DNA of 64,000 bases from Arcticibacter tournemirensis (GTDB lineage Bacteria > Bacteroidota > Bacteroidia > Sphingobacteriales > Sphingobacteriaceae), in assembly GCF_006716645.1 (NCBI RefSeq), contig NZ_VFPL01000001.1, forward strand, positions 3,534,001-3,598,000. The letters run 5' to 3'. The notes under the pieces are model-generated. The model saw only the letters and a program-made list of their open reading frames with translations. It searched no databases and was not told the DNA's origin. Made by a program: the position numbers and the translations under genes. Shown here one piece after another: positions 7,954-58,402 of this stretch (the stretch's first letter is position 1; every line of letters begins with the position of its first letter).

Positions 7954-9342
7954 ATGTTTTCAAAGGAGACTTATATCCATAGAAGAAAAGAACTGAAGAA
8001 TAAAGTACAAGAAGGCATTCTGCTCTTTCCGGGAAACGACGAAAGTCCTATGAACTACGCTGACAATGCCTACAGCTTCAGGCAGGACAGCACCTTCCTG
8101 TACTATTTCGGGATTAGTATGCCGAAGCTCGCGGCAGTGGTAGACCTGGACAGCGGAGAGGAAATTCTATTTGGCGACGAAATGACTCTCGATGAAATTG
8201 TATGGATGGGAAGGCAGGAAACGTTGAAAGAAAAAAGCCTGAAAGCTGGCATGGAACAGGTGCTGCCTTTGGAAAGCCTGCATACATTCCTTCAAAAAAT
8301 AAGACATCAAAAACGGAGCATTCATTACCTACCTCCCTACCGGCCTGAAAATGTTCTTCGATTGCTTCACCTGCTCGGCATCGAACCGGCTTCCTGCAAA
8401 GAGAACGCCTCACTTGATTTTATTAAAGCTGTAATATCGCAACGTTCGATAAAATCTTCTGAAGAGATTAACGAGATAGAAAAGGCAGTGAACATTACCA
8501 GGGAGATGCATTTAACTGCCATGAAAGTGGCTGCAGCCGGAATGAGCGAAAACGCAATTGCTGCTGCCATTCATGCCAAAGCCCTGGACGGAGGAGGCAA
8601 CATCGCCTACCCTATTATTCTGACGGTCCATGGTGAAATTCTCCATAACCATCATCATGAAAATATCCTGAAGGATGGGCAGTTGGTACTTAACGATTCA
8701 GGGGCTGAAACAGCTATGGGTTACGCAGGCGACCTTACCCGCACATTTCCTGTATCGACGAGGTTCACTGAAGCGCAAAAAGAAGTTTACAACATTGTTC
8801 TTAATGCCCTCGAATCATCCACAGCTCTGTTGAAACCAGGCATGAGGTACCTTGATGTTCACCTGCATGCTTGCAAAACGCTTGTAAACGGGCTCAAAGA
8901 ACTAGGGTTAATGAAAGGCGATACGAATGAAGCTGTAGCAGCCGGAGCTCATGCCATGTTCTTTCAATGCGGCACAGGTCACATGATGGGACTTGATGTA
9001 CATGATATGGAGGACCTGGGCGAAGAATACGTTGGCTATACAGATAACCTCAGGAAAAACACCAATCAATTCGGTTTAAAGTCTCTCCGATTAGGAAGGG
9101 AGCTGCAATCCGGATTCGTCCTTACGGTCGAACCCGGAATCTATTTTATTCCTGAACTAATTGACAGATGGAAAGCCGAAGGGCGCTTTAATGAGTTTAT
9201 AAATTATACTAAACTCGAACAATACCGCAATTTCGGGGGAATACGAATAGAAGACAACTACGTTATAACCGATGGCAGCGCGCAGCTTCTCGGCAAACCT
9301 TTAGCTAAAACCATTCAGGAGATAGAGGCACTAAGGGGCTAA
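7954..9342 (+). CDS. Xaa-Pro aminopeptidase (M24B, aminopeptidase P)
   Basis: A 462-residue cytosolic metallopeptidase that removes any N-terminal residue linked to proline. The N-terminal domain is the aminopeptidase P type (RRKELKNKVQEGILLFPGND...). The pita-bread catalytic domain shows the two-metal ligands: D and D in NDSGAETAMGYAGDLTRTFPV (an 11-residue spacing), His in GTGHMMGLDVHD, Glu in TVEPGIYF and Glu in GGIRIEDNYV. I set the start at ATG 7954; the reading frame continues upstream to 7819, but that part overlaps the divergent transporter gene and adds a non-family extension. The gene converges on the GH88 gene with only 12 bases between stop codons and no visible terminator. Confidence 0.93.
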   Translation: MFSKETYIHRRKELKNKVQEGILLFPGNDESPMNYADNAYSFRQDSTFLYYFGISMPKLAAVVDLDSGEEILFGDEMTLDEIVWMGRQETLKEKSLKAGMEQVLPLESLHTFLQKIRHQKRSIHYLPPYRPENVLRLLHLLGIEPASCKENASLDFIKAVISQRSIKSSEEINEIEKAVNITREMHLTAMKVAAAGMSENAIAAAIHAKALDGGGNIAYPIILTVHGEILHNHHHENILKDGQLVLNDSGAETAMGYAGDLTRTFPVSTRFTEAQKEVYNIVLNALESSTALLKPGMRYLDVHLHACKTLVNGLKELGLMKGDTNEAVAAGAHAMFFQCGTGHMMGLDVHDMEDLGEEYVGYTDNLRKNTNQFGLKSLRLGRELQSGFVLTVEPGIYFIPELIDRWKAEGRFNEFINYTKLEQYRNFGGIRIEDNYVITDGSAQLLGKPLAKTIQEIEALRG

Positions 9343-14457: not shown

Positions 14458-15465
14458 TTATTTATTTTCAACTTTTACCTGCCCTGTTTTAATATTCAGC
14501 TTCCAGGGCTTCGGTTCGGGTAACTTCAGCTTTCCCTCCCCGATTTCAACAGGCATCCATAAATACCTTGAATCCCACTGAGAGGACGGGCGCCACTGGT
14601 CGCCCATAAAAATCACGGTTGTATCTTTTGATCCCGCCACCTTTATCAGCATAGTCGACTGCGAACCATAGGTTTTACTTTCCGGAGGTGCAATGTCTTT
14701 AAATTCAGACCATGGGCCTTCTAAAGATTTAGCAGTCGCAAATTTATTAGGATTGGGATCCCAGCCCGTCAATGCTGATCCTATTGCGTAATACAAGCCA
14801 TTATAATGAACGATCGCACCACCCTCTAATGGGGCACTGATGAAACAGGTTTGTTCGGCAACGTTCAGGTAATCATCAGAAAGCTTTGCGATATAAAAAC
14901 CTCTTGTCGGGCGGCTTTCAAACACCAGGTAAGAGGTGCCATCATCATCTATAAATTGTCCTATATCCCTGCTTTCCAACCCGAGTGGCCTGAAACTTTT
15001 GACGAATTTGTATTCCCCGTCCACTTTATCACTGACGGCGACGCCCACTCTCGCGAACTTATAACTCCTGTCGTCGAGGTGCATATACATCACAAACTTT
15101 TTCGTTCTGTTGTTATAATACACTTTGGGACGCTCGAGTACCCAACCTGCACCAAGGTTTTCGGGATCAGGAAACTGGATCTTTTTCAGGAACTTCCAGT
15201 TCACTAAATCTGTTGATGAATAACACCCCACATACCGAAACTCCGGAAGGTTATCTTTTGCCCGGTATTCGCCGAACCAGTAATAGGTGGCCCCTAGTTT
15301 AATGATTCCTCCTCCGTGGGCCTGGATATGGTTACCATGGTCATCCGGCCATACGGCGCCAGGATATATGGTTTTTCCGTCCTTGTCCTGAGCAGTGAGT
15401 GAAACTGAAGATATAAAAAGGACCGTAAAAACTAACAATGCTGTTCTGAAGTTAGTAGAGTTCAT
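14458..15465 (-). CDS. GH43-like exo-beta-1,3-galactanase candidate
   Basis: A 335-residue exported five-bladed propeller of the GH43 group. The motif IQAHGGGIIKLGATYYWFGE (47-66) replaces the usual early catalytic Asp with HGGG, as in GH43_24 exo-beta-1,3-galactanases, where the standard base is missing. E111 in VLERPKVYY is the probable acid, and EGGAIVHYNG is a further conserved block. The signal peptide ends near SLTAQ25. If the subfamily call is right, it takes galactose from the beta-1,3-galactan backbone of arabinogalactan. A related subfamily (GH43_34) shares the HGGG motif and is the main alternative. Located 18 bases downstream of the DUF2264 gene. Confidence 0.75.
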   Translation of the reverse strand: MNSTNFRTALLVFTVLFISSVSLTAQDKDGKTIYPGAVWPDDHGNHIQAHGGGIIKLGATYYWFGEYRAKDNLPEFRYVGCYSSTDLVNWKFLKKIQFPDPENLGAGWVLERPKVYYNNRTKKFVMYMHLDDRSYKFARVGVAVSDKVDGEYKFVKSFRPLGLESRDIGQFIDDDGTSYLVFESRPTRGFYIAKLSDDYLNVAEQTCFISAPLEGGAIVHYNGLYYAIGSALTGWDPNPNKFATAKSLEGPWSEFKDIAPPESKTYGSQSTMLIKVAGSKDTTVIFMGDQWRPSSQWDSRYLWMPVEIGEGKLKLPEPKPWKLNIKTGQVKVENK

Positions 15466-29517: not shown

Positions 29518-29555
29518 GGGGTTCCAATAGTATTTGGACGAAATGTATCGCTAAG
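29518..29555 (+). repeat. Left terminal inverted repeat of Tn3-family element
   Basis: Thirty-eight bases from GGGGTTCCAA to ATCGCTAAG, identical as reverse complement to 39274-39311. The last five bases overlap the tnpA stop codon region, a compact arrangement usual in this family. Confidence 0.97.
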
Positions 29556-32517
29556 CATTTACCCTTAATTGCCTCAAGTTCCCATTCAAGCCATTTTCAT
29601 CAAAATCGAAGAAATATTTTCCGAGCCTGTTGATATGCGAAAACCTTGCGGGGGACAAATGAACGATATCATTTTGGTTTACATTAAATCCTTCTTTCTG
29701 CAATTCATTCAAGACCTCCTGCATGTAAATTGTATTCCAAAGTATAACACTATTGGTGGCTACATTTAGGCATAACGCCTGCTCTTGCTGTTGTTCTTCT
29801 TGTTTCTTCCTGATTTTGCCGTCCCCTCCAAACCAGAGGAAGTTTCGTAGGGAATGCAGAGCTTCACCTTTATTCAGTTGCGTATTGATCTTTCGCCTCA
29901 AAGTCTGGCTTAACAGGTATTTCAGTATGAAAATGGTTTTAATAAGCCTGCCGTATTCTTGCAAGACATATGTTAAATTATTTTGCCTTGGGTACGACTG
30001 GAGCTTGCCTATAAACAACGAAGAGGTAACATATCCCGATTTCATGGAACCCGCCAACCTTAACAAATCGTCCCATCTGCCTGCGATATAATCCGGATTC
30101 ACCACACCGGTAAATTTCAAGGAGGGATATTCGAAATCCTTGCCTTTGATCTTAGAAAGTTTTTGATCTTTAATATCCCTTAGCCTCGGTGAAAACTGCA
30201 TTCCCAATAAATCGAACAACCCAAATACCAGGTCTGTATAACCGGATGTATCTGTAGTATGTTCCAAAATATTAAGTTCAGTTTCATTATTTAGGATTTC
30301 ATCCAATACGTACATGGCATCTCTTTCAGTCGAGGCGATAACTTTACTTCCGAACTGGGAATATTGGTCTGCGGTGTGCGTATAAAACGTGACCCCCTTG
30401 CCATACCCAAAATATTTCAGTTGGGCTTTTGCATTTCTTATTTTACCGCTTACGGGGAAACGCTGTCCATCGGAAGAAGAAATGGTACCGCCTCCCCAAA
30501 GATTAGAAAGCCATTGTTTGTGGTGATAGTTTACTAAATGATTATTGGCAAGTTTTAGCGTGTCTTCTCTTTGATAACTTCGGATCGACCACAACAGATC
30601 ATAGTATTCGATGTTGGCACTCCGGGCCATATCCACCCAAGGTATGTTACAGGCATTGCTTAAAAGCGAGGCATAAACACGGTGTATCTGACCAATCTCC
30701 GGACACTTTCCATCATGTATCGAAGTAAGGTGATTAGTAAAATTTGTCCATGAATTGACTTCCATTAAAATCTCTGGAAGGTCTACCAGTGGCAAACGGG
30801 AAGAAATAGCGTTTTCAAGCTCATATACGGAATCCGGAAGTTCCTGTGCCTGCAACCGGGGGACTACAAGTATGCCGTCTTCAAGCCGGACTTCATCGGT
30901 TCCGACCAACAGGTCATTTACCAAAGGCAGCAAATCTTCGAGTTCTTTGATTTTACCGTTAATATGAGTCAAGGCATCCGGGGAAATATACAGCTGGCCG
31001 CAGAGCTCCTCTTTTTTGATTTTCCACTGTTCTTTGGGGATCAGGTACCCATCAAGATCAGCATACCTGCGGGAATTGGAAACAAAAACGTCACCGGAGT
31101 TGAGTTTGTCTTTTAGCTTAAAAAGCACGCACCATTCGTATGATTGTTTGATTACTTCCCCCTTATCGTCAAAAACATACTTTGCCCAGGTGGGGGTTAT
31201 GAAATCTAAGGGGGCGTCATCTGGTATTTTCTTACGGGAACCGTTTTGAAGGCCAAGTACAATCTCGATTGCGTACAAGAAATTATCGTCCCGGATTCCA
31301 GAAAAAAAGGCCAGCGTTTTAAGGAAGTTTCCGCTGAACTGTCTAAGCCGGTTAAAGTGGTTGTCTAGGAAGGAGAGGAAATTGCTCCTGGCAGGTTTTA
31401 AGATTTCCTGGGTAACGGAGATCGCTTCGTCAAGCTCGACTTTTGAGATATTGCTAAATACCTTTGTCCTGATTTGTTCCGGAGGGATTTTTTCGTCGGC
31501 AACCATGGTTGCCACAAAGCTTAGGGTAGCCATCGCATTATCTTTGGCGTTTACGGTCTCTTGTTGATAGATTTCAAGTGACCTTCTGCATTTATGGAGC
31601 ACGTCGTCGAGATAGGCTTCAAACATATCTAAAACCGAATCTGTAACGTCGATGAGGTTCTGGGCAAGAAATGCAATTAGAATTGGATACCTCTTTTCAG
31701 GGTTCATCCGCTGGATTTCCTGATTGGTAGACCTGCGGGCTTTTTGGGAAAGGAACTTTTTACGGTTAGGGTTTAGTACGGTTAGATCCCAATCTGCTAC
31801 ACCTATATTAATAAGGTACTGATATTTCGTCAATACATTGTTCAACGTAGAAGGGGTATTGGAATTGGGAGGCTCTTTTAGCCAGCCAAAACAGGTGAAA
31901 GAACTTCCTTCTTCGATCATGAGCAAAGCATCTAACCGTATTTTTAGTTCAGGATTTAAAATTACGGATAGCCTCGTGTAAGTTTCTGTATATGCCTGGC
32001 CACGCACGGAGACCACCATTCTTTCAAGGGTTCCAATTGCGGGCCTCAATATCCGGTTTTGGATAAGTTTTTCACAAGCTAGATCCAAAAGCAGGGTCGG
32101 TTTATCATGTTCCAGCGAACGTTCCAGAAGCCAGGCCTCAAGCTGAACGGCATCCATGGGCGCAAATCTTGAAAAATGGAGGTGTTTTAGTATAGACTGC
32201 AAGTGATCCGCACGGGTATTCCTTCTAGTGCTATAGTTTTTCAGGTCGGACGGAAGAGCCTGTAGTTGTTCAGACAAACGTTCAAGAACAAGTTTGGGCA
32301 TACTCGTTTCCCACTCATCGGTAAGGAAACCCATAAACCTGATCAGGCAAAGCTGACATGCAAAGCCCAGCCTTTGTTCATTTCCTCGCTGTTCCTTAAT
32401 TAATGCAATATCGCTATCTGATAAATAAAAGTACCGGTTCAGATCTTCCGGAGAAATGGAAGAAGGCACGTACTCATAGCGTTCTCTTTCTGTATGTGTA
32501 AGGAACTGGCCGGCCAT
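29551..32517 (-). CDS. tnpA: Tn3-family transposase
   Basis: A 988-residue transposase of standard Tn3 length. The N-terminal DUF4158-type DNA-binding region (FLTHTERERYEYVP, FYLSDSDIALI) is present. The catalytic core shows the DDE motifs: SSSDGQRFPVSG, HTTDTSGYTDLVFGLFDLLG and LNKGEALHSLRNFLWFGG. It carries out replicative transposition at the 38-bp ends. Its stop codon overlaps the left inverted repeat, and it follows tnpR by 15 bases on the same strand. No frameshift or stop interrupts it, so it appears functional. Confidence 0.97.
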   Translation of the reverse strand: MAGQFLTHTERERYEYVPSSISPEDLNRYFYLSDSDIALIKEQRGNEQRLGFACQLCLIRFMGFLTDEWETSMPKLVLERLSEQLQALPSDLKNYSTRRNTRADHLQSILKHLHFSRFAPMDAVQLEAWLLERSLEHDKPTLLLDLACEKLIQNRILRPAIGTLERMVVSVRGQAYTETYTRLSVILNPELKIRLDALLMIEEGSSFTCFGWLKEPPNSNTPSTLNNVLTKYQYLINIGVADWDLTVLNPNRKKFLSQKARRSTNQEIQRMNPEKRYPILIAFLAQNLIDVTDSVLDMFEAYLDDVLHKCRRSLEIYQQETVNAKDNAMATLSFVATMVADEKIPPEQIRTKVFSNISKVELDEAISVTQEILKPARSNFLSFLDNHFNRLRQFSGNFLKTLAFFSGIRDDNFLYAIEIVLGLQNGSRKKIPDDAPLDFITPTWAKYVFDDKGEVIKQSYEWCVLFKLKDKLNSGDVFVSNSRRYADLDGYLIPKEQWKIKKEELCGQLYISPDALTHINGKIKELEDLLPLVNDLLVGTDEVRLEDGILVVPRLQAQELPDSVYELENAISSRLPLVDLPEILMEVNSWTNFTNHLTSIHDGKCPEIGQIHRVYASLLSNACNIPWVDMARSANIEYYDLLWSIRSYQREDTLKLANNHLVNYHHKQWLSNLWGGGTISSSDGQRFPVSGKIRNAKAQLKYFGYGKGVTFYTHTADQYSQFGSKVIASTERDAMYVLDEILNNETELNILEHTTDTSGYTDLVFGLFDLLGMQFSPRLRDIKDQKLSKIKGKDFEYPSLKFTGVVNPDYIAGRWDDLLRLAGSMKSGYVTSSLFIGKLQSYPRQNNLTYVLQEYGRLIKTIFILKYLLSQTLRRKINTQLNKGEALHSLRNFLWFGGDGKIRKKQEEQQQEQALCLNVATNSVILWNTIYMQEVLNELQKEGFNVNQNDIVHLSPARFSHINRLGKYFFDFDENGLNGNLRQLRVNA

Positions 32518-32532
32518 AGGATCAGTTATTAA

Positions 32533-33135
32533 CTATTCTTGTTTTGCCTTGGGCTTTCTGACGGCCCGGTCTACGTTTAAATAATCAAGATAATGATAGA
32601 CGGTCGCCCTGCTGATGCTTACTGCCTCACAAATTTCATTGATAGATTTTTTTTCATCGAGATACAGGTGCTTTACTGCAGCAGCTTTTACCTTTGCCTC
32701 TTTGGTCAGGCCTTTCTTTCTGCCTCCGACCCTCCCACGGCTCCGTGCTGCCGCCAACCCGGCGAGCGTCCGTTCTTTGATTATTTCCCGTTCAAATTCA
32801 GAAAGCGAAGCGAACATATTAAAAATCAAACGGCCTTGGGCTGTAGTGGTATTAATCTGGTCTTGAAGGCTAAGAAATCCAATGCCTGCTGTTTTGAAAT
32901 CCGATACCAACGTAAGCAAGTGTTTTAGGGATCTGGCCAGACGGTCAAGTTTCCATACGACAATGGTGTCCCCCTTTCTTAAGTTAGAAACCATTTCTGA
33001 TAATTTGGGTCGTTCCTCCAGTGAAGCGCTTAACTGCTCCTGATAAATTTTTTCGCATCCCGCTTTTTTGAGAGCATCAATCTGGAGGTCTAGATTCTGG
33101 TCTTGGGTCGAAACCCGGGCATAGCCAATCATCAT
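32533..33135 (-). CDS. tnpR: Serine resolvase of the Tn3-family element
   Basis: A 200-residue small serine recombinase. The nucleophile S9 lies in IGYARVSTQDQN, followed by VWKLDRLARSLKHLL and EFEREIIKERTLAGL, the long E-helix. A C-terminal helix-turn-helix (SINEICEAVSISRATVYHYL) binds the res site. It resolves the cointegrate after replicative transposition. A second ATG at 33132 would give the same protein minus one Met. A palindrome 20 bases upstream is a good res candidate. Confidence 0.95.
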   Translation of the reverse strand: MMIGYARVSTQDQNLDLQIDALKKAGCEKIYQEQLSASLEERPKLSEMVSNLRKGDTIVVWKLDRLARSLKHLLTLVSDFKTAGIGFLSLQDQINTTTAQGRLIFNMFASLSEFEREIIKERTLAGLAAARSRGRVGGRKKGLTKEAKVKAAAVKHLYLDEKKSINEICEAVSISRATVYHYLDYLNVDRAVRKPKAKQE

Positions 33136-33154
33136 AAGTTTAATAAAACGTCTT

Positions 33155-33181
33155 ATTAGTATATTAATTAAATATACTAAT
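33155..33181. promoter_or_regulatory. Candidate res crossover palindrome
   Basis: Perfect 11-bp inverted repeat (ATTAGTATATT at 33155-33165, AATATACTAAT at 33171-33181) around the AT-only spacer AATTA, just upstream of tnpR. Tn3-family res site I has this form: two arms around an AT core. A weaker pair (TAATAA/TTATTA) lies directly beside it. Subsites II and III would be expected in 33182-33300 but were not resolved by eye. Confidence 0.5.
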
Positions 33182-33306
33182 ATTTTATACTTATCAAGAA
33201 AAGCCGATTCTTTTAAATTTTGCCTTTCAGTGGCGTTTATCGAAAATTTCTGATTTCCGTTTATAGGTATACTTTAACGACCGTTTTACTCTCATCAACT
33301 GATGAT

Positions 33307-33340
33307 GAAAAAAGCCCGAAAAAAGTTTTTTTTCGGGCTA
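33307..33340 (-). terminator. Rho-independent terminator of the mer operon
   Basis: On the minus strand the hairpin AGCCCGAAAAAA/TTTTTTCGGGCT (33313-33339) is followed by a T-tract (the A-run at 33308-33313 on the plus strand). It sits about 27 bases after the Cys-rich peptide stop codon, separating the mercury operon from the transposition genes. Confidence 0.85.
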
Positions 33341-33366
33341 TATCTTGAATGAATTTTGTTTCCTGA

Positions 33367-33615
33367 TTAAAGCTTTGAAGAAGCTTTTTTCAGCGAAGCT
33401 GTCTCTTGGGATTTTTGACAGCAAGAAGGAAGAGTTACTTTCTTCTGATCTGCAAGCTTACACTTCGAAGTACCCTTATCCGGGCAGTTCTTTACCAGTT
33501 TACACTTAGCTGTTCCTTTGTCCGGGCATTTATCCTGTAAGGGATTAAAAGCATACATCGACCCTCCTGTAAAAAACATTACAGCAGTTACTAATCCTAA
33601 AACTTTCCTTTTCAT
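33367..33615 (-). CDS. Small exported Cys-rich protein of the mer operon
   Basis: An 82-residue protein of no family I recognise. A signal-like N-terminus (KVLGLVTAVMFFTGGSMYAF) is followed by a duplicated motif, CPDKGTAKCKL (30-40) and CPDKGTSKCKL (44-54), and a vicinal pair in LPSCCQK (C65, C66): six Cys in the mature part, with many Lys. As the last gene of a mercury operon, a periplasmic thiol scavenger or Hg(II)-binding protein is a reasonable inference. It is separated by six bases from the glutaredoxin-like gene and followed by a strong terminator, so it belongs to the operon. Confidence 0.7.
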   Translation of the reverse strand: MKRKVLGLVTAVMFFTGGSMYAFNPLQDKCPDKGTAKCKLVKNCPDKGTSKCKLADQKKVTLPSCCQKSQETASLKKASSKL

Positions 33616-33621
33616 ATATAT

Positions 33622-33891
33622 TTATATTAATTGTCCTACTCCTGCCTGGCTTAATTGCTCCCTGGTAATACCGCCTTCAGCGATATCTACCTTCTGTCCA
33701 TTTACAATAACGGTTGGAAGCACGGTTACCTTATATTGCTTTAACTTATCTGTATAAAATTCCGGGTCTGTCTGCTTAGATAAATCATAAACTTCTACCT
33801 CGCAATTACTACAAGCCATCGACTGAACTAATTCTACTACCGGCTTGCAAACCGGGCAACCTGCTGTAAATACTTCTATCTTTCTTTTCAT
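33622..33891 (-). CDS. Glutaredoxin/thioredoxin-like protein of the mer operon
   Basis: An 89-residue thioredoxin-fold protein without signal peptide. It has an N-terminal CPVC active site (C12, C15, in FTAGCPVCKPV), a second pair CSNC (C27, C30) at the end of the first helix, and cis-proline P59 in VTVLPTVIVNGQ. The single-domain size fits glutaredoxin or thioredoxin-like DUF-type proteins. In this operon it could reduce or transfer mercury-bound thiols in the cytosol. It lies 15 bases after the CsoR-like gene and 6 before the Cys-rich gene. Confidence 0.75.
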   Translation of the reverse strand: MKRKIEVFTAGCPVCKPVVELVQSMACSNCEVEVYDLSKQTDPEFYTDKLKQYKVTVLPTVIVNGQKVDIAEGGITREQLSQAGVGQLI

Positions 33892-33906
33892 AATACCTTA
33901 AAATAT

Positions 33907-34311
33907 CTAGATCAAAGGTCGGGTGGTACCGGGGGAGGTCTCCAAATCTTTTTTGAAGATATTCATCAGATCGTAAGCAGATTGAATTTCCTTCATTTTT
34001 TGGGTTAATTCCTCTTCAGCTAGTGTTGGAAACTGTAGTCTCAAAGATTCTATCGTTTGCTCCTGACCGCAGTTACCCGGGCAGGCCTGTATCACTTCAG
34101 AAATTTTAGCGGCCAATGATTTTCGAAAAGCTTCATCAACAAGAAGAGTTTGGGCTGTTTCAAGGGCTTTTGTAACTGCTTTAAATTGATTTAAGATTTG
34201 CTGGGGGTCTTTATCCTCGTCTAGCATTTTGACAATGCCTTCCACCTGCCCTTTAATGGTGTTCAGTCTATTTTTAACATCTCGTGTTAAGTCTTTAGGT
34301 AGCATATCCAT
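33907..34311 (-). CDS. CsoR/DUF156-like metal regulator lacking usual ligands
   Basis: A 134-residue protein. Its first 70 residues match the CsoR/FrmR fold (VKNRLNTIKGQVEGIVKMLDED, then ILNQFKAVTKALETAQTLLVDEA). The canonical Cys-His-Cys metal ligands are absent; by alignment to the GQ anchor their positions are P36, E60 and S65. Instead a CPGNC pair (C77, C81) lies after the last core helix, followed by a C-terminal helical extension (to 134) that typical 90-residue members lack. It may sense Hg(II) through these Cys, or no longer bind metal. It sits 43 bases after merA, inside the operon. ATG 34305 is an alternative start. Confidence 0.7.
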   Translation of the reverse strand: MDMLPKDLTRDVKNRLNTIKGQVEGIVKMLDEDKDPQQILNQFKAVTKALETAQTLLVDEAFRKSLAAKISEVIQACPGNCGQEQTIESLRLQFPTLAEEELTQKMKEIQSAYDLMNIFKKDLETSPGTTRPLI

Positions 34312-34354
34312 AAGGCAAGTTTAGTGGCTGTTGGGGGTGGTCTGCAAATAATAC

Positions 34355-36013
34355 TTAGCTGGCACAGCAACTAAGGGTTGCAATATCTTTCCCAAAGGCG
34401 ATAGCTGCAAGTTTGATTCCCTCGCTAAGGGTTAAATAAGGGTGAAAGGTTTTTGCCAGTTCATTCACAGTTATTCCGTATTTGACGGCTAAGGTGAGCT
34501 CCATGATCAGCTCTCCACCTTCGGGAGCTACGACCCTGGCCCCGATCAGTTTGTCTGTTTGGGTATCTCTTATAAGTTTTATAAAACCACGGGTATCTTT
34601 TGCAGCCTGACTTCTTGGAACCTCCGTTAAGGGCATCTTGCTTACTTCGAAAGGCAAACCAAGTGCCGCTGCTTCCACTTCATCAAGGCCAACACCTGCT
34701 ACTTGTGGGTCGGTAAATACTACCCAGGGTAAGGAAGAATAATCAGCTTTACTTCCTGCTCCTTTAAAAGCATTCTCTACAGCCATCTTGCCCTCGGTTG
34801 CGGCAGTATAGACATACGCAGGCGTATTAATTACGTCACCTACTGCATAAATGCCGGAAACGTTGGTTTCCATCATCGCATTAACTACGATATGTCCATT
34901 CTTAGTAGTTTCTAAACCAATTTTATCTAAACCTAACTTGCTTGTATTCGGGCGGGTACCGGTTGCTATTACAAGGTGACCAGGTTCAACCAGGGTAATC
35001 TCTTTTCCATCCGGATCTTTGCAATGAATCAATATTGAAGAATCCTTTTTTTCAAATTTTTGTGCCCGAACATTTGGTAAAACAGCAATGCCCTCCCCCT
35101 GCATTTGCTTTTGAAGTTCCTGGCTGATATCGGGAGCTTGCGACCGAAGTACTCTGTCTGTAAACTCAATAATTCGAACCTTTACACCCAAGCGGGAATA
35201 AGCCATTGCAATTTCAAGACCTATATATCCTGCGCCCATTATGGTTATACTTTCAGGCTTTTCCTCCAGCTCAAACAAGGATACATTCGTCAAATAACCT
35301 ACTTCCTGCAATCCTTCAATATTGGGTATATTGGTAGTGGCGCCGGTAGCAATGATAAATTTCAGTGCTGAATATTTCGTCTCTCCATTTACAACAATGG
35401 TTTTGGTGTCCAGGAATTCTGCCCATCCTTCAACCATCCGGAAATTATCAAAGTCTTTGACGATATCCATATATTTTTTCTGCTGCAGCCGGGATACCAT
35501 TTCCGTTTTCTCCCGGATGACTTTAGCGAAATCAATGCTTGCTCCGTAGGGATTTATTCCATCAAAGTTGGAATGAGAAGCATGATAAGCCGTTTCTCCT
35601 GCCCGGATAAGGATTTTAGACGGTACGCAACCCACATTTACACAGGTTCCACCAAATGGCAATCCTGCGTTTACCATTAAAATTGATAAACCAAGCTCAT
35701 GGGCTGTAATTGCAGCCGAAAAAGCAGATGAACCACCTCCTATAAGGATCAGGTCATAAAAGGTAGGTTCTGCAGGAGCATTAAGAACCGAGCTTGTACC
35801 ACGGGCCTGATACTTTTTCGTACTGTTAATCGTACTGATAATGTCTTCATCGGTTGTCATTTGCCCATTAAAGGTAATTTCTCCTTTTCCGGACTCGTGG
35901 TTTACCGAGGCAACCGTTATTCCTTCCTTATTCTTCAAAAGGCTCTCGATACTTACAGCACAATGCTTGCAGGTCATACCTGTGATATCGACTTCTATCT
36001 TTCTATTTTCCAT
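34355..36013 (-). CDS. merA: Mercuric reductase with N-terminal HMA domain
   Basis: A 552-residue flavoprotein that reduces Hg(II) to volatile Hg(0) with NADPH. The N-terminal heavy-metal domain has GMTCKHC (C15, C18). FAD binding begins at LILIGGGSSAFSAA, the redox-active pair is C124/C129 in GGTCVNVGCVPSK, the NADPH site is TIMGAGYIGLEIA, and the C-terminal delivery pair is C549-C550 (SCCAS). All key cysteines are present, so it should be active. It follows the MerP gene by 19 bases. No merB (organomercurial lyase) is seen in the element. Confidence 0.97.
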   Translation of the reverse strand: MENRKIEVDITGMTCKHCAVSIESLLKNKEGITVASVNHESGKGEITFNGQMTTDEDIISTINSTKKYQARGTSSVLNAPAEPTFYDLILIGGGSSAFSAAITAHELGLSILMVNAGLPFGGTCVNVGCVPSKILIRAGETAYHASHSNFDGINPYGASIDFAKVIREKTEMVSRLQQKKYMDIVKDFDNFRMVEGWAEFLDTKTIVVNGETKYSALKFIIATGATTNIPNIEGLQEVGYLTNVSLFELEEKPESITIMGAGYIGLEIAMAYSRLGVKVRIIEFTDRVLRSQAPDISQELQKQMQGEGIAVLPNVRAQKFEKKDSSILIHCKDPDGKEITLVEPGHLVIATGTRPNTSKLGLDKIGLETTKNGHIVVNAMMETNVSGIYAVGDVINTPAYVYTAATEGKMAVENAFKGAGSKADYSSLPWVVFTDPQVAGVGLDEVEAAALGLPFEVSKMPLTEVPRSQAAKDTRGFIKLIRDTQTDKLIGARVVAPEGGELIMELTLAVKYGITVNELAKTFHPYLTLSEGIKLAAIAFGKDIATLSCCAS

Positions 36014-36032
36014 AACCGGAGTTCCAGATGAT

Positions 36033-36368
36033 TTATTTAACTGTCACAGCTTTATAACCTGCCTTTTTTATCGACTTTATAATTTGCTCCGGGCTCGTTT
36101 TTTCCGGATCATACTTTACTACAGCTATATCTCCCGGGTACTCCACCGTTTGTTCGAGTACACCCGATTGACTTTTTAAAGCTTTGGATACGTGACTTGC
36201 GCAGCCTGCGCAAGTTATACCTGTTAGCTTTAACCGTAATACTTCTGTTTTACGAACATTGGCATGGGTCTCTGATGCCTTTGCTTCACATGAACCACAA
36301 CCGCACATTTGAGAGGTGGCAAAGAATAGTCCGGAAACAACCGTTATTAAAATTGCTTTACTTATCAT
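36033..36368 (-). CDS. merP: Periplasmic mercury-binding protein, MerP-like
   Basis: A 111-residue exported HMA-domain protein. Signal peptide MISKAILITVVSGLFFATS is followed by a short Cys-containing stretch (CGCGSC), then the HMA domain with GITCAGCASHVSKAL and the typical ending SIKKAGYKAVTV. It binds Hg(II) in the periplasm and hands it to the membrane transporter. ATG 36368 is preferred; the frame extends to a GTG one codon upstream. The additional CGCGSC cluster before the HMA domain is not usual for MerP and may add a metal site. Confidence 0.88.
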   Translation of the reverse strand: MISKAILITVVSGLFFATSQMCGCGSCEAKASETHANVRKTEVLRLKLTGITCAGCASHVSKALKSQSGVLEQTVEYPGDIAVVKYDPEKTSPEQIIKSIKKAGYKAVTVK

Positions 36369-36386
36369 CACTTTTCGTTTTTAGAA

Positions 36387-37004
36387 TTATTTAATTTCAG
36401 CTTGTACCTTATACCCTGTTGAATTAATTGCCTGTACCAGCTGCTCTTTGTTGGTCTTAGCAGGGTCAAATTGGACAGCGGCAGTACCTTCTTTAAAATC
36501 AGCGTTTACCTGATTTATCCCGGGCAGCTGATTAACACTATGCTCGATATGCTCTCCACAACTTTGGCAGGTCATACCCCTTACTTTGAAACTTACTTGC
36601 TGAAAATTCTTATGGGCTATATTAATCGAAGTGTTCACCTTGCTAATCTCCTTTGAAGAATAAAAAACATGCCCATAATTGGGAAAAGCAAGCATGGCCA
36701 CCGCAAAGAGCGTAACAATACCAAGAAACTTTTTAGACTGTAAAAAGGAAGGTTTTTTTTCATCCTCACAGGCACAATCTACGGCGTTCACTGGTTTAGG
36801 CTTCAATTTCCGGTACCAAGCAAAAGCAAGCACGGCCAGGGTAAGGGCAATTAATACCGGTCTGAAGGGCTCCATCCACGAGAAGGTAGAAGCTACACCG
36901 GAAACTCCCGTAACAAGGGCTAAAATTGGGGTAATACAACAAAGCGATGCTGCTACAGCTGTTAACAATCCAGCTCCCACTAATCCTGATTTCTCTGTTT
37001 TCAT
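36387..37004 (-). CDS. merTP: Fused mercury transporter MerTP
   Basis: A 205-residue fusion of a MerT-like membrane part and a MerP-like domain. TM1 holds the vicinal pair C22-C23 (AASLCCITP) that receives Hg(II). A cytosolic loop pair C77/C79 (DCACED) follows TM2, TM3 is LGIVTLFAVAMLAF, and the C-terminal HMA domain (about 136-205) has GMTCQSC (C146, C149). The fusion form is common in Bacteroidota mercury operons. The start overlaps the arsR stop by ATGA (37001-37004), so translation is coupled. Confidence 0.93.
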   Translation of the reverse strand: MKTEKSGLVGAGLLTAVAASLCCITPILALVTGVSGVASTFSWMEPFRPVLIALTLAVLAFAWYRKLKPKPVNAVDCACEDEKKPSFLQSKKFLGIVTLFAVAMLAFPNYGHVFYSSKEISKVNTSINIAHKNFQQVSFKVRGMTCQSCGEHIEHSVNQLPGINQVNADFKEGTAAVQFDPAKTNKEQLVQAINSTGYKVQAEIK

Positions 37005-37381
37005 ATCTGTTCTGCTTTTTTGCTTGACTCTGTTATATGTGAAAATAGGGGCTTTAATAATTTCAGATGCTTAGGCTCAATAGAGTAGAATATCGTTTGA
37101 GCTACCTTACGGGCTTTAATAATTCTACCATCTTTCATTTTTCGTAGATGTTGTGAAATGGCCGGAATGCTCATGCTAAGAATATCAGCCAGGTCGCAAG
37201 GACATAGCTCGCCTTCTTCCTCCAAAAGGAAAAGAATTTTAAGCCTGGCTTCATTTCCCGCAAGTGCCAGAATGTTGCTTAATCCTGTAAATACGATTTG
37301 GTTAGTACTTAAAAGTTCTTTACACTCTTTTATCTGATTGGCGTCTGCCAGGACTCGTATACATGTATTTTGATTTTCCAT
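37001..37381 (-). CDS. ArsR/SmtB-family repressor of the mer operon
   Basis: A 126-residue winged-helix metal sensor. The metal site ELCPCDLADIL (C60, C62) lies in the alpha-3 position typical of ArsR/CadC sensors. The recognition helix is in MSIPAISQHLRKMKDGRII, and the wing in QTIFYSIE. Extra Cys at 7 and 20 could complete the site, as in CadC. It is the first gene of the mercury operon and replaces the classical MerR, so control is expected to be by derepression. A candidate operator lies 28 bases upstream. Confidence 0.92.
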   Translation of the reverse strand: MENQNTCIRVLADANQIKECKELLSTNQIVFTGLSNILALAGNEARLKILFLLEEEGELCPCDLADILSMSIPAISQHLRKMKDGRIIKARKVAQTIFYSIEPKHLKLLKPLFSHITESSKKAEQI

Positions 37382-37408
37382 TAAGACAAAGGTATAAATA
37401 TTATTTCA

Positions 37409-37432
37409 TTATTTAAGCAAATACTTTAATAA
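37409..37432. promoter_or_regulatory. Candidate ArsR operator of the mer operon
   Basis: TTATTTAAGCAA followed directly by ATACTTTAATAA forms an imperfect inverted repeat with 9 of 12 positions paired, in the arsR-VOC divergent intergenic region. ArsR/SmtB repressors bind AT-rich 12-n-12 repeats of this sort. The site lies 28 bases upstream of the arsR ATG. Confidence 0.4.
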
Positions 37433-37712
37433 GATTTCATTTTATTTCCATTCAACCCGATATAGTGGGCTTCATTAATTAATTTTAACTAATCATTATA
37501 CTAGGGCAATCATTTTAAAAATCAATCATGGCTACAATAACACCTATATTCCGAATGTTCGACTATGACAAGGCAGTTGAATTTTATATAGACTGGCTGG
37601 GTTTTAAAATTGACTGGGAAGACAAACCGGACAATACGCCAATTTATATGCAAATCTCACTCAATGGTATTATTCTTCATTTGACAGAACATCATGGCGA
37701 TGTACCGACCCC

Positions 37713-38690
37713 TTATAAGTTGGACAATAATAATGAATTAGTTGTGTAATATTTGTTTATATCTGGGGATAATTCGGAGGCCATTTTATTGATATCTTGT
37801 AGTTCCGTTCTTTCTGCCCTTTTCTTTTCGGTTATATGAATATTCTGTTCCCACTTCTGTAACGGGGTCATACCAATGTTTCGGTGATTTCTTCTGTTAT
37901 CGTACCAGGAGCGGTGCGCTGCAAGTGTGTGCTTTGCGTGATAAAAGCTGTCGAACTCAAACCGGTCTACCACTTCCCGCTGAACAATGCTGTGGAAAGC
38001 CTCGATATAAGAGTTTTCTTCTGGTGTAGCAATGTGAGTAAACTCCTGATTAGCTTCGGCAGCTCTTAAGTATTGCTTCACGCTGTTAGCGATAAACTGG
38101 GATCCATTATCATTTCTGATAGTAACTCCTTTGATACCGTATTGCTGCCTGATTCTTCTGAAAGCGTTAATTACATCCAACTGCCGGATGCTTTTCTGAA
38201 AGATCTGATCAACCGTTTTTCGGGAAAATACATCCAGAATGGTTAACAGGTAATAATTTCGTTTATCGGCATGCACATAGATGTATTTAATATCCAAGCA
38301 AAGATATTCCATTGGATAAGAGGCCTGAATCTTACGGTGCTGAACGAACTTGCGTTTTCCGCTTGTCCGGATCACTTTGCCTAATAAGAGGTTCTGTTCA
38401 TCCATTAACCGGTAGACCTTTTTCTCATTGATATAATATTCCTGTTTACGCAACTCCTGGGTGACATTTTCATAACCGTAACAACAGAATTCCTGCGATA
38501 AAATGTCTTTTATTTCTTCAACTACTACCTGGTTTTCCACCCTGGAGCCATCTAGTTTAAAAGTATGGGTACTGGGCTTTGCACCCCGCTTACCGTTTCT
38601 GTTTTTATAATAATACACACTGCCAGGCATACCCATCCAGGATAAAAGCGTGCTGGAAGGAACCATATGATTGAACTGAGAGACGATCAT
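37713..38690 (-). CDS. IS3-family transposase OrfB (DDE integrase)
   Basis: A 325-residue catalytic subunit. N-terminal HTH_21-like region (CCYGYENVTQELRKQEYYIN) precedes the rve core with D133 (CLDIKYIYVH), D194 (IRNDNGSQFI) and E230 (EENSYIEAFHS). The 35-residue spacing between D194 and E230 is the IS3 signature. Its ATG overlaps the orfA stop by four bases (38687-38690), so expression by coupling or frameshift is expected. Confidence 0.95.
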   Translation of the reverse strand: MIVSQFNHMVPSSTLLSWMGMPGSVYYYKNRNGKRGAKPSTHTFKLDGSRVENQVVVEEIKDILSQEFCCYGYENVTQELRKQEYYINEKKVYRLMDEQNLLLGKVIRTSGKRKFVQHRKIQASYPMEYLCLDIKYIYVHADKRNYYLLTILDVFSRKTVDQIFQKSIRQLDVINAFRRIRQQYGIKGVTIRNDNGSQFIANSVKQYLRAAEANQEFTHIATPEENSYIEAFHSIVQREVVDRFEFDSFYHAKHTLAAHRSWYDNRRNHRNIGMTPLQKWEQNIHITEKKRAERTELQDINKMASELSPDINKYYTTNSLLLSNL

Positions 38691-39001
38691 CTTCTTGTCT
38701 TGGTTTGAATGGGAGTTTTTTTTAAAAGCTCAGATTTTACTTCTATCTCCAGGGCCTGTCTGGCAATGATCCGTTTTAACCGCTCATTCTCCTCTTCCAG
38801 AGCTCTTACCTCCGGATCCACCCGGTGATAGGCTGGCTTCAAACCTTCCATGCCTTTACTCTGATACTTCTTCTTCCATCTGGCATACAGTGAGGGTGCT
38901 AAATTATACTTACGGCAAGTGGATGTGATTCCCTCTCGTTCGCCTTCTTGAATGATAGAAAGCCTGTCTTCAGGGGTGAACGCCCTTCTTTCTCTTTTCA
39001 T
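38687..39001 (-). CDS. IS3-family transposase OrfA
   Basis: A 104-residue DNA-binding subunit. Helix-turn-helix region RLSIIQEGEREGITSTCRKYN and LYARWKKKYQ recognises the IS ends. It is followed by a leucine-zipper-like coiled coil (RALEEENERLKRIIARQALE) used for multimerisation with OrfB. Gene order and overlap with orfB are standard for the family. Confidence 0.93.
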   Translation of the reverse strand: MKRERRAFTPEDRLSIIQEGEREGITSTCRKYNLAPSLYARWKKKYQSKGMEGLKPAYHRVDPEVRALEEENERLKRIIARQALEIEVKSELLKKTPIQTKTRR

Positions 39002-39273
39002 GATTCCCTAATTTAATCGTTCTAAATTGTTTTTAAAATTTAGTCCAGTCTTTTAGGGGGCTAGTACAGCGACTGTTCACCGGGCGCAAGAGCTTATATT
39101 GATAAGTTTGAGAATCTCAAAGATTTCCATAAACAACTTTTGAGTAAACCATATAAATTCAATAGACCAGGACTCGAAAAAACACTTTGGAAACCAAAAA
39201 ACTTATGTATGGATGTAATTGACCCATTTGGAAATAGATTATCATTTAATAGTTGACTTACTACTGGAAATCT

Positions 39274-39316
39274 CTTAGCGATACATTTCGTCCAAATACT
39301 ATTGGAACCCCTAACC
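39274..39316 (-). repeat. Right terminal inverted repeat and TSD of Tn3-family element
   Basis: Positions 39274-39311 are the exact reverse complement of the left end. The following TAACC (39312-39316) matches the five bases before the left end. The HTCS stop codon lies 39 bases beyond. Confidence 0.96.
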
Positions 39317-57066: not shown

Positions 57067-57426
57067 TTGAAGGCAAAAAGAGCTTTGGAGAAAGAACTGT
57101 TATCCCTGTTATTGCCTGATGGTCTGACCGAGTTGTTCGATGTAGATCGGATCGAGAAAAAAGAAGACCAGATCCATTTGTACTTATCACAGAAGAATAC
57201 ACCGCCTGCAGGTCATGAAGGCAGTTTGTTATCCAAAGGCTTTTTCGATGAGATCACCGTGCGTGATTTCCCCCTTCGCGGCAAAGCCTGTTTTCTGCAT
57301 TTGAAACGACGTAAATGGGTGGATAAGAGCACCGGTACAGTCATCTTCCACGATTGGAACCAGGTAGCTGAAGGCACTCGAATGACCACCGAGCTTGCCG
57401 CTTTTTTAAAAGGATTTGATCGATAG
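57067..57426 (+). CDS. ISL3/ISAon1-type transposase, N-terminal ORF
   Basis: A 119-residue protein with a TTG start directly inside the left IS end. It has no Cys zinc finger; the visible blocks are GLTELFDVDRIEKKEDQIHLYL and GKACFLHLKRRKWVDKSTG, the N-terminal region of ISAon1-type transposases. It overlaps the next ORF by 11 bases. Joining the two would need a +1 shift, so either separate translation with reinitiation or programmed shifting is possible. Confidence 0.8.
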   Translation: MKAKRALEKELLSLLLPDGLTELFDVDRIEKKEDQIHLYLSQKNTPPAGHEGSLLSKGFFDEITVRDFPLRGKACFLHLKRRKWVDKSTGTVIFHDWNQVAEGTRMTTELAAFLKGFDR

Positions 57427-58402
57427 ATATCCCTTGGGTATCCAAACCATTGCCAAACTTTTTGGACTGGAGGGCAAGCGACTGGAAGAACATTACGTGC
57501 GCCACCTGAGTGATTTTATGAGCTGGCAAGCACGGGAACATGCCCCTGACTGGCTCTTATTCCCTGAGAACGTTGGACCTTATCTAAGTATTGACGAGAC
57601 CAGTCTGTCACAGGGAGAGCTCTATACCGTGGTGACTAACAAGCAGGCAAAAGGACGTAAAGGTGCCCTGGTAGCCATTGTCAAAGGTGTCAGGAGTGAT
57701 CAGATCATTCAGATACTGAAGAAGATACCCCGCCGTAAGCGCTATATGGTTGAGGAGGTAACCCTGGACCTGGCTGCCACCATGGAACGTATTGTTATCC
57801 GCAGCTTTCCCCGGGCTAAACTGGTCTCCGATCGTTTTCATGTTCAGCAACTGGCTACCGATGCCGTTCAGCAGCTGCGTATTGAACATCGATGGCAGGC
57901 CATCGATCAGGAGAACCTGGAAATAGAACTGGCTAAAGAACTTCACAAAGAGTATGTTCCGGATTTGCTGGAGAATGGCGATACTCCAAAGCAGCTATTG
58001 GCACGGAGCCGGTACCTGTTATTCAAAGACGAAACTGCCTGGACACCCTCTCAGCGACAACGGGCTGAAATCCTTTTCCGTATTTACCCCGATCTGGAAA
58101 AGGCCTACAGGATGAGCCGTAACCTCTCTCATATCTTCTCATCTACCAAAGAGAAGGAGCTGGGGTATACCCGCCTGGCCCAATGGTACGATCAGGTGGA
58201 AAAGGCTGGCATCAAAGCCTTCTCATCGCTTAGAAGAACTATCCAAAATCATTACATTACTATCCTTAATTACTTTGACAACCGAAGCACAAATGCTTCT
58301 GCTGAGTCCTTCAACGCCAAAATCAAAGCACTTAGAAGTCAATTCAGGGGAGTGAAAAACGTCGACTTTTTTATGTATCGTCTGATGAAAATTTATGCTT
58401 AG
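57416..58402 (+). CDS. ISL3-family transposase, catalytic ORF
   Basis: A 328-residue DDE_Tnp_ISL3 protein. Catalytic Asp in YLSIDETSLSQGELYTVVT, second Asp in AKLVSDRFHVQQLA, and Glu in NASAESFNAKIKALR near the C-terminus fit the family. The start is a TTG inside the previous ORF. The stop lies in the right inverted repeat. It appears intact. Confidence 0.9.
   Translation: MIDRYPLGIQTIAKLFGLEGKRLEEHYVRHLSDFMSWQAREHAPDWLLFPENVGPYLSIDETSLSQGELYTVVTNKQAKGRKGALVAIVKGVRSDQIIQILKKIPRRKRYMVEEVTLDLAATMERIVIRSFPRAKLVSDRFHVQQLATDAVQQLRIEHRWQAIDQENLEIELAKELHKEYVPDLLENGDTPKQLLARSRYLLFKDETAWTPSQRQRAEILFRIYPDLEKAYRMSRNLSHIFSSTKEKELGYTRLAQWYDQVEKAGIKAFSSLRRTIQNHYITILNYFDNRSTNASAESFNAKIKALRSQFRGVKNVDFFMYRLMKIYA

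Follow-up and report, generated by a model that had tools for sequence, protein, structure and literature searches.

What is a second, CsoR-like regulator doing at the end of a mercury-resistance (mer) gene cluster that already begins with an ArsR-type regulator? The question is raised by a 64,000-nucleotide stretch of the genome of Arcticibacter tournemirensis (Bacteroidota, Sphingobacteriaceae; RefSeq GCF_006716645.1, contig NZ_VFPL01000001.1, positions 3,534,001 to 3,598,000), which we call the window. Here a seven-gene cassette on the minus strand (33367–37381) runs from arsR through merTP, a merP-like gene and merA to a trio of small genes, which encode a CsoR-like regulator, a thioredoxin/glutaredoxin-like (Trx-like) protein and a cysteine-rich (Cys-rich) protein. 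We consider it reasonably probable that the whole is a mercury transposon of the Tn3 family with two regulatory layers, an ArsR-run mer operon and a separately switched CsoR-like module with a CxGxC sensor.

All seven open reading frames of the order proposed in the initial annotation are in place. The arsR gene (ArsR/SmtB type, 37001–37381) matches NF033788 at 80.8 bits (cut-off 55), and the merTP fusion (36387–37004), which includes an HMA domain, matches NF033556 at 270.1 bits (cut-off 180). The merA gene (34355–36013) matches TIGR02053 at 504.8 bits (cut-off 454.45); its product has an N-terminal HMA domain (PF00403) and retains both the active site CVNVGC (in GGTCVNVGC) and the C-terminal cysteine pair (LSCC). 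The merP of that order survives only as an HMA protein: the gene at 36033–36371 encodes 112 residues that look exported by eye and match PF00403 at 59.4 bits, but reach only 38.7 bits against the MerP equivalog cut-off of 92.55, and we dropped the identification as MerP. The absence of merR, merD and merB, also part of the earlier description, holds for the 12 transposon open reading frames that were scanned, other small frames lying outside the scan; a MerB search of the organism's own genome found no match, but neither did its control, so that absence is not shown there. For mer operons of Bacteroidetes, control by ArsR-like regulators without merR has already been published (Boyd and Barkay, 2012; PMC3466566), and for this reason ArsR control and the missing merR are nothing new here. 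The likeness to those operons lies in the ArsR-like regulator of mer and in merA; the gene set tabulated in that study (arsR, merR, merP, T, C, F, E, G, H, B, D and TRASH) is without csoR, trx or the Cys-rich gene, and its text has 0 occurrences each of 'CsoR', 'thioredoxin' and 'glutaredoxin'. A 2021 mer survey (PMC8261052) mentions neither ArsR nor CsoR in its main text, and there was no mer-linked CsoR or Bacteroidetes mer transposon among the literature matches listed, which were mostly from open-licence literature.

A complete Tn3-family transposon of 9794 bp (29518–39311, no strand assigned) carries the cassette as cargo. Its ends are 38/38-bp perfect terminal inverted repeats (29518–29555 and 39274–39311), flanked at both ends by the 5-bp target duplication TAACC, and the end sequence has one match per end in the 5.66-Mb genome and nothing else at ≤ 3 mismatches. 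On the minus strand the transposon encodes a 988-residue Tn3-family transposase (tnpA, 29551–32517; NF033527 859.4 bits, cut-off 500; also PF01526) and a 200-residue serine resolvase (32533–33135; PF00239 159.3 bits). A sister transposon in a Dyadobacter metagenome-assembled genome (locus L002, 6313–14794; loci are given by our L numbers) has the identical gene order and a regulator 93% identical to that of the window. One of its ends lies at 6313, with 2/38 mismatches, and the other at 14757, the duplication ACTGT stands on both sides, and the transposon interrupts a gene whose parts give a heavy-metal P-type ATPase match and a weak match to an HMA domain. That a sister copy with its own 5-bp duplication shares the gene order leads us to conclude that the whole unit moves. 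Megablast of the whole transposon against 72,556 plasmid records gave no match. Compared with Tn501 and Tn21, the element is alike in its Tn3-family transposase, terminal repeats, 5-bp duplication, serine resolvase and mer cargo, but has ArsR and CsoR-like regulators in place of MerR. Neither the enclosing transposon nor the two motif copies described below had appeared in the initial annotation.

The CsoR-like regulator (33907–34311, minus strand) has 134 residues, or possibly starts at Met3 (34305) as in its relatives. It matches PF02583 at 61.3 bits (cut-off 22.8), and the proposal of two regulators of different families thus held, both the ArsR-type and the CsoR-type protein scoring over their family cut-offs. 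It scores below the cut-offs of the listed CsoR-type models RicR, RcnR and FrmR, and regulators of this kind were the sole PF02583 match in the organism's own genome and in four others (5/5). Relatives were gathered from genome contigs, plasmids, MerTP loci and profile searches, and aligned in 27 rows (alignment A4), leaving out L004 (contig end), L139 (split fragments), L142 (interrupted) and L039 (near-copy of L036). Only seven columns are invariant. Two of these are C77 and C81, in CPGNC, CPGDC and similar motifs, kept in 27/27 and the sole cysteines in 24/27. Copper ligands of the classical kind are missing: at the positions of C36, H61 and C65, which we take to be the ligands of Mycobacterium tuberculosis CsoR, there is Cys at 36 in 0/27 (P36 in the window), His at 61 in 0/27 and Cys at 65 in 0/27, positions being placed by alignment to that protein and the third by extending that alignment. 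The loss of this Cys-His-Cys Cu(I) site rules out an ordinary CsoR copper sensor. Q42 is kept in 27/27 and aligns with chain residue 84 of Streptomyces lividans CsoR, presumably Q81 if the numbering is shifted as its ligands suggest. This alpha-2 glutamine of S. lividans CsoR is described as required for DNA binding (PMC3902906). According to PMC5016687, every DUF156 protein conserves the sensing cysteine, C35 in FrmR; with no cysteine at position 36 in any of the 27 rows, the branch departs from that rule as the source words it.

The predicted model of the window regulator (23-row alignment; pLDDT 82.8, pTM 0.56) has helices at 6–31, 36–76, 84–96 and 99–125, with CPGNC in the turn behind helix 2, and Foldseek ranks CsoR, InrS, CstR and FrmR first, with weak E-values (0.15 and above). 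The protein thus resembles the CsoR/RcnR/FrmR/CstR family (DUF156, PF02583) in the PF02583 core, the two long helices, the invariant Q42 and perhaps a G/C-tract near predicted promoters, but differs in lacking the supposedly universal cysteine and the other two ligands, in the invariant CxGxC and, as modelled, in the additional helices 84–96 and 99–125. CsoR-family proteins working by thiol chemistry are on record, namely CstR and TTHA1953, the latter repressing the thioredoxin gene soxW among others (PMC10318464). The likeness would be one of cysteine chemistry; the cysteines of TTHA1953, in contrast, are C39 and C68, taken as CsoR positions, against C77 and C81 after helix 2 here, and unlike CstR and TTHA1953 the window regulator has metal genes as neighbours. 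The CsoR-like proteins form a CsoR branch whose sensor chemistry is probably new, as judged from the alignment. Family membership was drawn narrowly: L150 (G189 contig 9, 47 bits), which is without CxGxC, was excluded, and phylum-sample matches at ≤ 45 bits were kept out, the two that were read (L151, L152) also being without CxGxC. Two loci have the regulator fused with an HMA-like (MerP-like) domain (L143, 2791–3456; L141, 7983–8609, by its sequence).

The two partner genes also encode cysteine-containing proteins. The Trx-like protein (33622–33891, minus strand, 89 residues, with CPVC) matches PF13192 at 29.4 bits (cut-off 24.8), with C12, C15 and C30 invariant in a seven-row alignment. The Cys-rich protein (33367–33615, minus strand, 82 residues), secreted-looking by eye and with repeats of CPxxGTxxC, had no match at E up to 0.1 among Pfam and NCBIfam models; C30, C38, C44, C52, C65 and C66 are invariant in a 12-row alignment that left out shorter relatives with fewer cysteines in L100, L140 and L147. 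Gaps are 43 bp between merA and csoR, 15 bp between csoR and trx and 6 bp between trx and the Cys-rich gene (cysR), behind which lies a terminator-like hairpin (33313–33339, minus strand, 12-pair stem and T tail), a class of site that is not above shuffled sequence in number (five versus 4.5). The picture of a tail of small, Cys-containing, tightly spaced genes with one terminator was therefore borne out, with gaps of 15 and 6 bp and the hairpin at 33339–33313. Thioredoxins and small thiols reportedly act in Hg(II) resistance of Thermus.

Is this tail merely the end of the mer operon? An inverted-repeat search upstream of csoR found no shared palindrome or flanking repeat; what the upstream sequences of the compared loci have in common is a C-tract. 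Two predicted promoter/operator copies lie in the window, both on the minus strand: O1 (TTTGCAGACCACCCCC...AACTTG, 34316–34348), ahead of csoR in the merA–csoR gap, with one mismatch to TTTGGAGACCNCC, and O2 (TTTGGAGACCTCCCCC...CTTTG, 33913–33946), ahead of trx and overlapping the csoR 3′ end, with no mismatch and with a second TTTG 26 nt after the first. Bacteroidetes promoters have −33 TTTG and −7 TAnnTTTG elements. The spacing of the motif resembles this arrangement, with the C-tract in the spacer; a sigma-70 promoter scan of the region gave eight matches versus 9.6 expected. Across 29 loci, with L142 and L039 kept in the counts, the core TTGN6ACCC has 24 copies lying ≤ 130 bp ahead of a trio gene, spread over 17 loci; at the density that it shows in the remainder of these loci, 0.40 would be expected. 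The longer TTTGGAGACCNCC at ≤ 1 mismatch gives 16 matches in the 495 kb of these loci, all beside the regulator or trio: 14 are ≤ 200 bp upstream of a trio gene, one is ahead of a P-type ATPase gene (L035) and one directly after csoR (L079). In a control set of 62 MerTP stretches that lack the regulator (842 kb) there are two matches, and when TTTG is also asked for 25–26 nt after the first TTTG the comparison is 11 versus 0. In the organism's own genome a 16-letter pattern at ≤ 1 mismatch finds only O1 (34333–34348) and O2 (33931–33946), the pattern having been written to fit O1 and O2 being the new match; at two mismatches there are three further matches, and a reversed control pattern also gives three. 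A plasmid fetched later (L169, 12.3 kb) has only two TTGN6ACCC sites, one ahead of csoR and one ahead of grx. In L003 the motif lies in the gap shared by the trio and a divergent arsR-merTP-merA. Where csoR follows arsR (L056, L085, L095), it stands behind csoR and ahead of cysR-merTP, with two, three and one mismatches, respectively, merA being present as well in L085 and L095; the mer genes of these loci may therefore be in the regulon. The presence of two copies in the window points to a unit under its own control rather than just the end of the mer operon.

How far is the module tied to mercury? In 395 genomes of the window's class, searched for MerTP (E ≤ 1e-20), the regulator (E ≤ 1e-8) and the Cys-rich gene with profiles built partly from MerTP loci and counted uncorrected for relatedness, MerTP is present in 63 and the regulator in 11, all 11 of them MerTP-positive. 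Regulator and MerTP are ≤ 3 kb apart in 10 of the 11, the exception being G134 at ~258 kb, and every one of the seven genomes with the Cys-rich gene is among the 11. Other classes of the phylum, too, have the regulator gene in metal loci: a phylum sample (395 genomes, partly the same) added nine loci at > 65 bits outside the class, six of which (L142, L144–L147, L149) have MerTP labelled in the fetched stretch. Within the window's own order, three further genomes of 400 have the regulator (L138–L140), none with MerTP nearby. Six Bacteroidota plasmid records carry it, one of which (Adhaeribacter) has an adjoining arsR-merTP; five Hymenobacter plasmids carry csoR-glutaredoxin next to genes for RND efflux, a multicopper oxidase or a P-type ATPase, with no mer in the stretch read (5/5) and, in L036, L037 and L169, with the Cys-rich gene directly behind. 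These plasmids rule out a mer-only trio. The module is thus linked to mer and not confined to it. The regulator was found in 0/29 candidate stretches of viral contigs, and three Nocardia/Streptomyces plasmids gave matches at 32–36% identity. As to the mer genes themselves, only 16/71 MerTP stretches (L040–L110) have a MerA match, one of them weak and some stretches ending at a contig edge, so MerTP is often without merA nearby.

Gene orders point to a loose assembly. Thirty loci were mapped (the window, L002, L003, L035–L039, nine MerTP loci and L137–L149): the regulator has both partners in eight, only the Cys-rich gene in seven, only the Trx-like gene in eight and neither in seven, which leaves at least one partner labelled near it in 23/30. 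Both are present in the window, L002, L003, L036–L039 and L140, the Cys-rich gene of L038 being 5.7 kb away and the copy behind the glutaredoxin gene of L039 being altered. The tail described in the initial annotation does recur, but the full trio beside merA is narrow in its distribution, occurring only in the window, in L002 (the same transposon) and in L003; elsewhere the CsoR-like gene lies near a MerA-like gene, assigned by phmmer label, with one partner or none (L060, L067, L073, L076, L085, L095, L144, L146, L149). The regulator stands behind merA in L060, L073 and L076, between arsR and cysR-merTP in L056, L085 and L095, and beside a MerR-type gene in L144, and in L003 the trio is divergent from arsR-merTP-merA. 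It occurs, with or without partners, in stretches without MerTP or MerA in L036–L039, L137–L141, L143 and L148, and by annotation in L169. The idea of a distinct module with two regulators is thus supported as to the two families and the recurring tail, but not as to a purely Hg-handling role. Given such varied orders, in loci with and without mer, we regard the trio as a recurring, loosely assembled soft-metal module. A Pfam scan for further neighbours found beta-propellers in L145 and L146 and no shared partner. Two other observations concern these neighbourhoods. L142, which shares its genome with L141, has a second, interrupted regulator copy (8268–8783) whose neighbours are a Trx-like gene, a GDCCVxC gene and merTP, and GDCCVxC-type genes adjoin merTP or the regulator in L035, L056, L079, L100, L141 and L142, the model match having been tested in L079 only.

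How might such a system work? ArsR would govern arsR-merTP-merP-merA from a promoter upstream of arsR, and the CsoR-like protein would act as a repressor bound at the C-tract sites O1, for its own gene, and O2, for trx-cysR. The pair Cys77-x-Gly-x-Cys81, predicted to lie in the turn after the long second helix, could capture a thiophilic metal or report thiol damage and so release the DNA; the metal captured would be Hg(II) here and probably Cu(I)/Ag(I) in related loci. Once induced, the Trx-like protein might act in the cytoplasm, repairing or stripping thiols that are oxidised or blocked by metal, and the exported Cys-rich protein might retain metal beyond the inner membrane. From motif positions, the proposed C-tract regulon may include the Trx-like and exported Cys-rich proteins and, in some loci, merTP-merA or a P-type ATPase. 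We put forward only tentatively, as a possibility short of an even chance, the wider proposal that a CsoR branch with an invariant CxGxC dithiol, for which our literature searches gave no name, is a mercury/soft-metal repressor with its own C-tract regulon, serving Bacteroidota mer systems as a second control beside ArsR and moving between genera on a Tn3-family transposon.

Several observations weigh against the reading of two regulatory layers. O1 is an imperfect copy: CTTG stands where the second TTTG is expected, so that it fails the stricter joint test, as one of five of the 16 close copies without that TTTG. It ends 4 nt before the first ATG and leaves almost no leader ahead of csoR; the transcript would therefore be leaderless or start at Met3. 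TTTGGAGACCNCC at two mismatches without the second TTTG loses its specificity, with 46 matches versus 60 in the control; the joint motif at three mismatches gives 20 (16 near the trio) versus six. The motif was defined on the same loci in which it was counted, these include near-copies (window/L002, L141/L142/L143, L036/L039), and L169 shares its genus with L036–L039. L073, L138 and L149 have no motif near the trio, and no partner is labelled near the regulator in seven of the 30 loci (L035, L067, L073, L138, L139, L148, L149). The RLxR region retains its Arg at position 15 in just 18/27 regulators. The module also lies near other heavy-metal genes, without mer in the stretch read, in L036–L039, L138–L140 and L169, and Hg may therefore not be the signal.

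This last point leads to a serious, though in our estimate unlikely, rival: that the trio hitch-hiked on the mer transposon as a module for copper/silver or thiol (persulfide, disulfide) stress in general, its regulator sensing sulfur or redox state in the manner of CstR, or Cu(I), and playing no specific role in Hg handling. It would account for the five Hymenobacter plasmids with no mer in the stretch read, all of which have genes for RND efflux, a multicopper oxidase or a P-type ATPase, and for the copper-type neighbours in L138, L139 and L140, and the thiol chemistry of CstR and TTHA1953 (PMC10318464, as above) offers it a precedent. It fits poorly with the presence of MerTP in 11/11 regulator-positive class genomes, with the motif ahead of cysR-merTP-merA in L095 and, with two mismatches, of cysR-merTP in L056, and with the fusion of the regulator to an HMA-like domain in L143 and L141.

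Two other explanations seem to us very improbable. The tight spacing, the terminator at the very end and the imperfect O1 are what one would expect if the trio were, as the layout in the initial annotation suggests, the read-through tail of a single ArsR-controlled operon with functionless C-tract sites; against this stand a motif conserved ahead of trio genes in several gene orders (11/16 close copies with TTTG at 25–26 nt), its rarity in MerTP loci without csoR, and L003, where the motif lies in the gap between the divergent trio and arsR-merTP-merA. Hardly more credible, and if anything a shade less so, is a regulator that senses no ligand, a constitutive DNA-binding or structural protein whose Cys pair just stabilises the fold. 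All three canonical ligand positions are indeed lost, and sequence similarity to solved members is low (best E 3.7e-05), but two cysteines are kept in 27/27 when only seven alignment columns are invariant, and the phylum's other classes also have the gene in metal loci. If a mercury transposon with two regulatory layers is the correct reading, a metalloregulator family that is well studied, and whose sensing cysteine was called universal, would gain a new sensing site. Two small families, the Trx-like and the exported CPxxGTxxC proteins, would find their place in its regulon, and mercury resistance would be seen under a control that departs from the MerR model; the prediction of an O1/O2 regulon is directly testable.

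The transposon has other passengers. A truncated glyoxalase-like gene (37528–37749, plus strand) matches PF19581 at 72.0 bits over profile positions 15–72 of 133 only; this glyoxalase-superfamily gene breaks off at 37749, at the site of an element that we call IS3-like, and by eye a stretch resembling the rest of its frame lies at ~39080–39254. The IS3-like transposase genes orfB and orfA (37713–39001, minus strand) match PF00665, PF13276 and PF01527. Elsewhere in the window there is an ISL3-type transposase gene (57416–58402; PF01610), and SusC/SusD-like genes were recognized by eye among the neighbouring genes.

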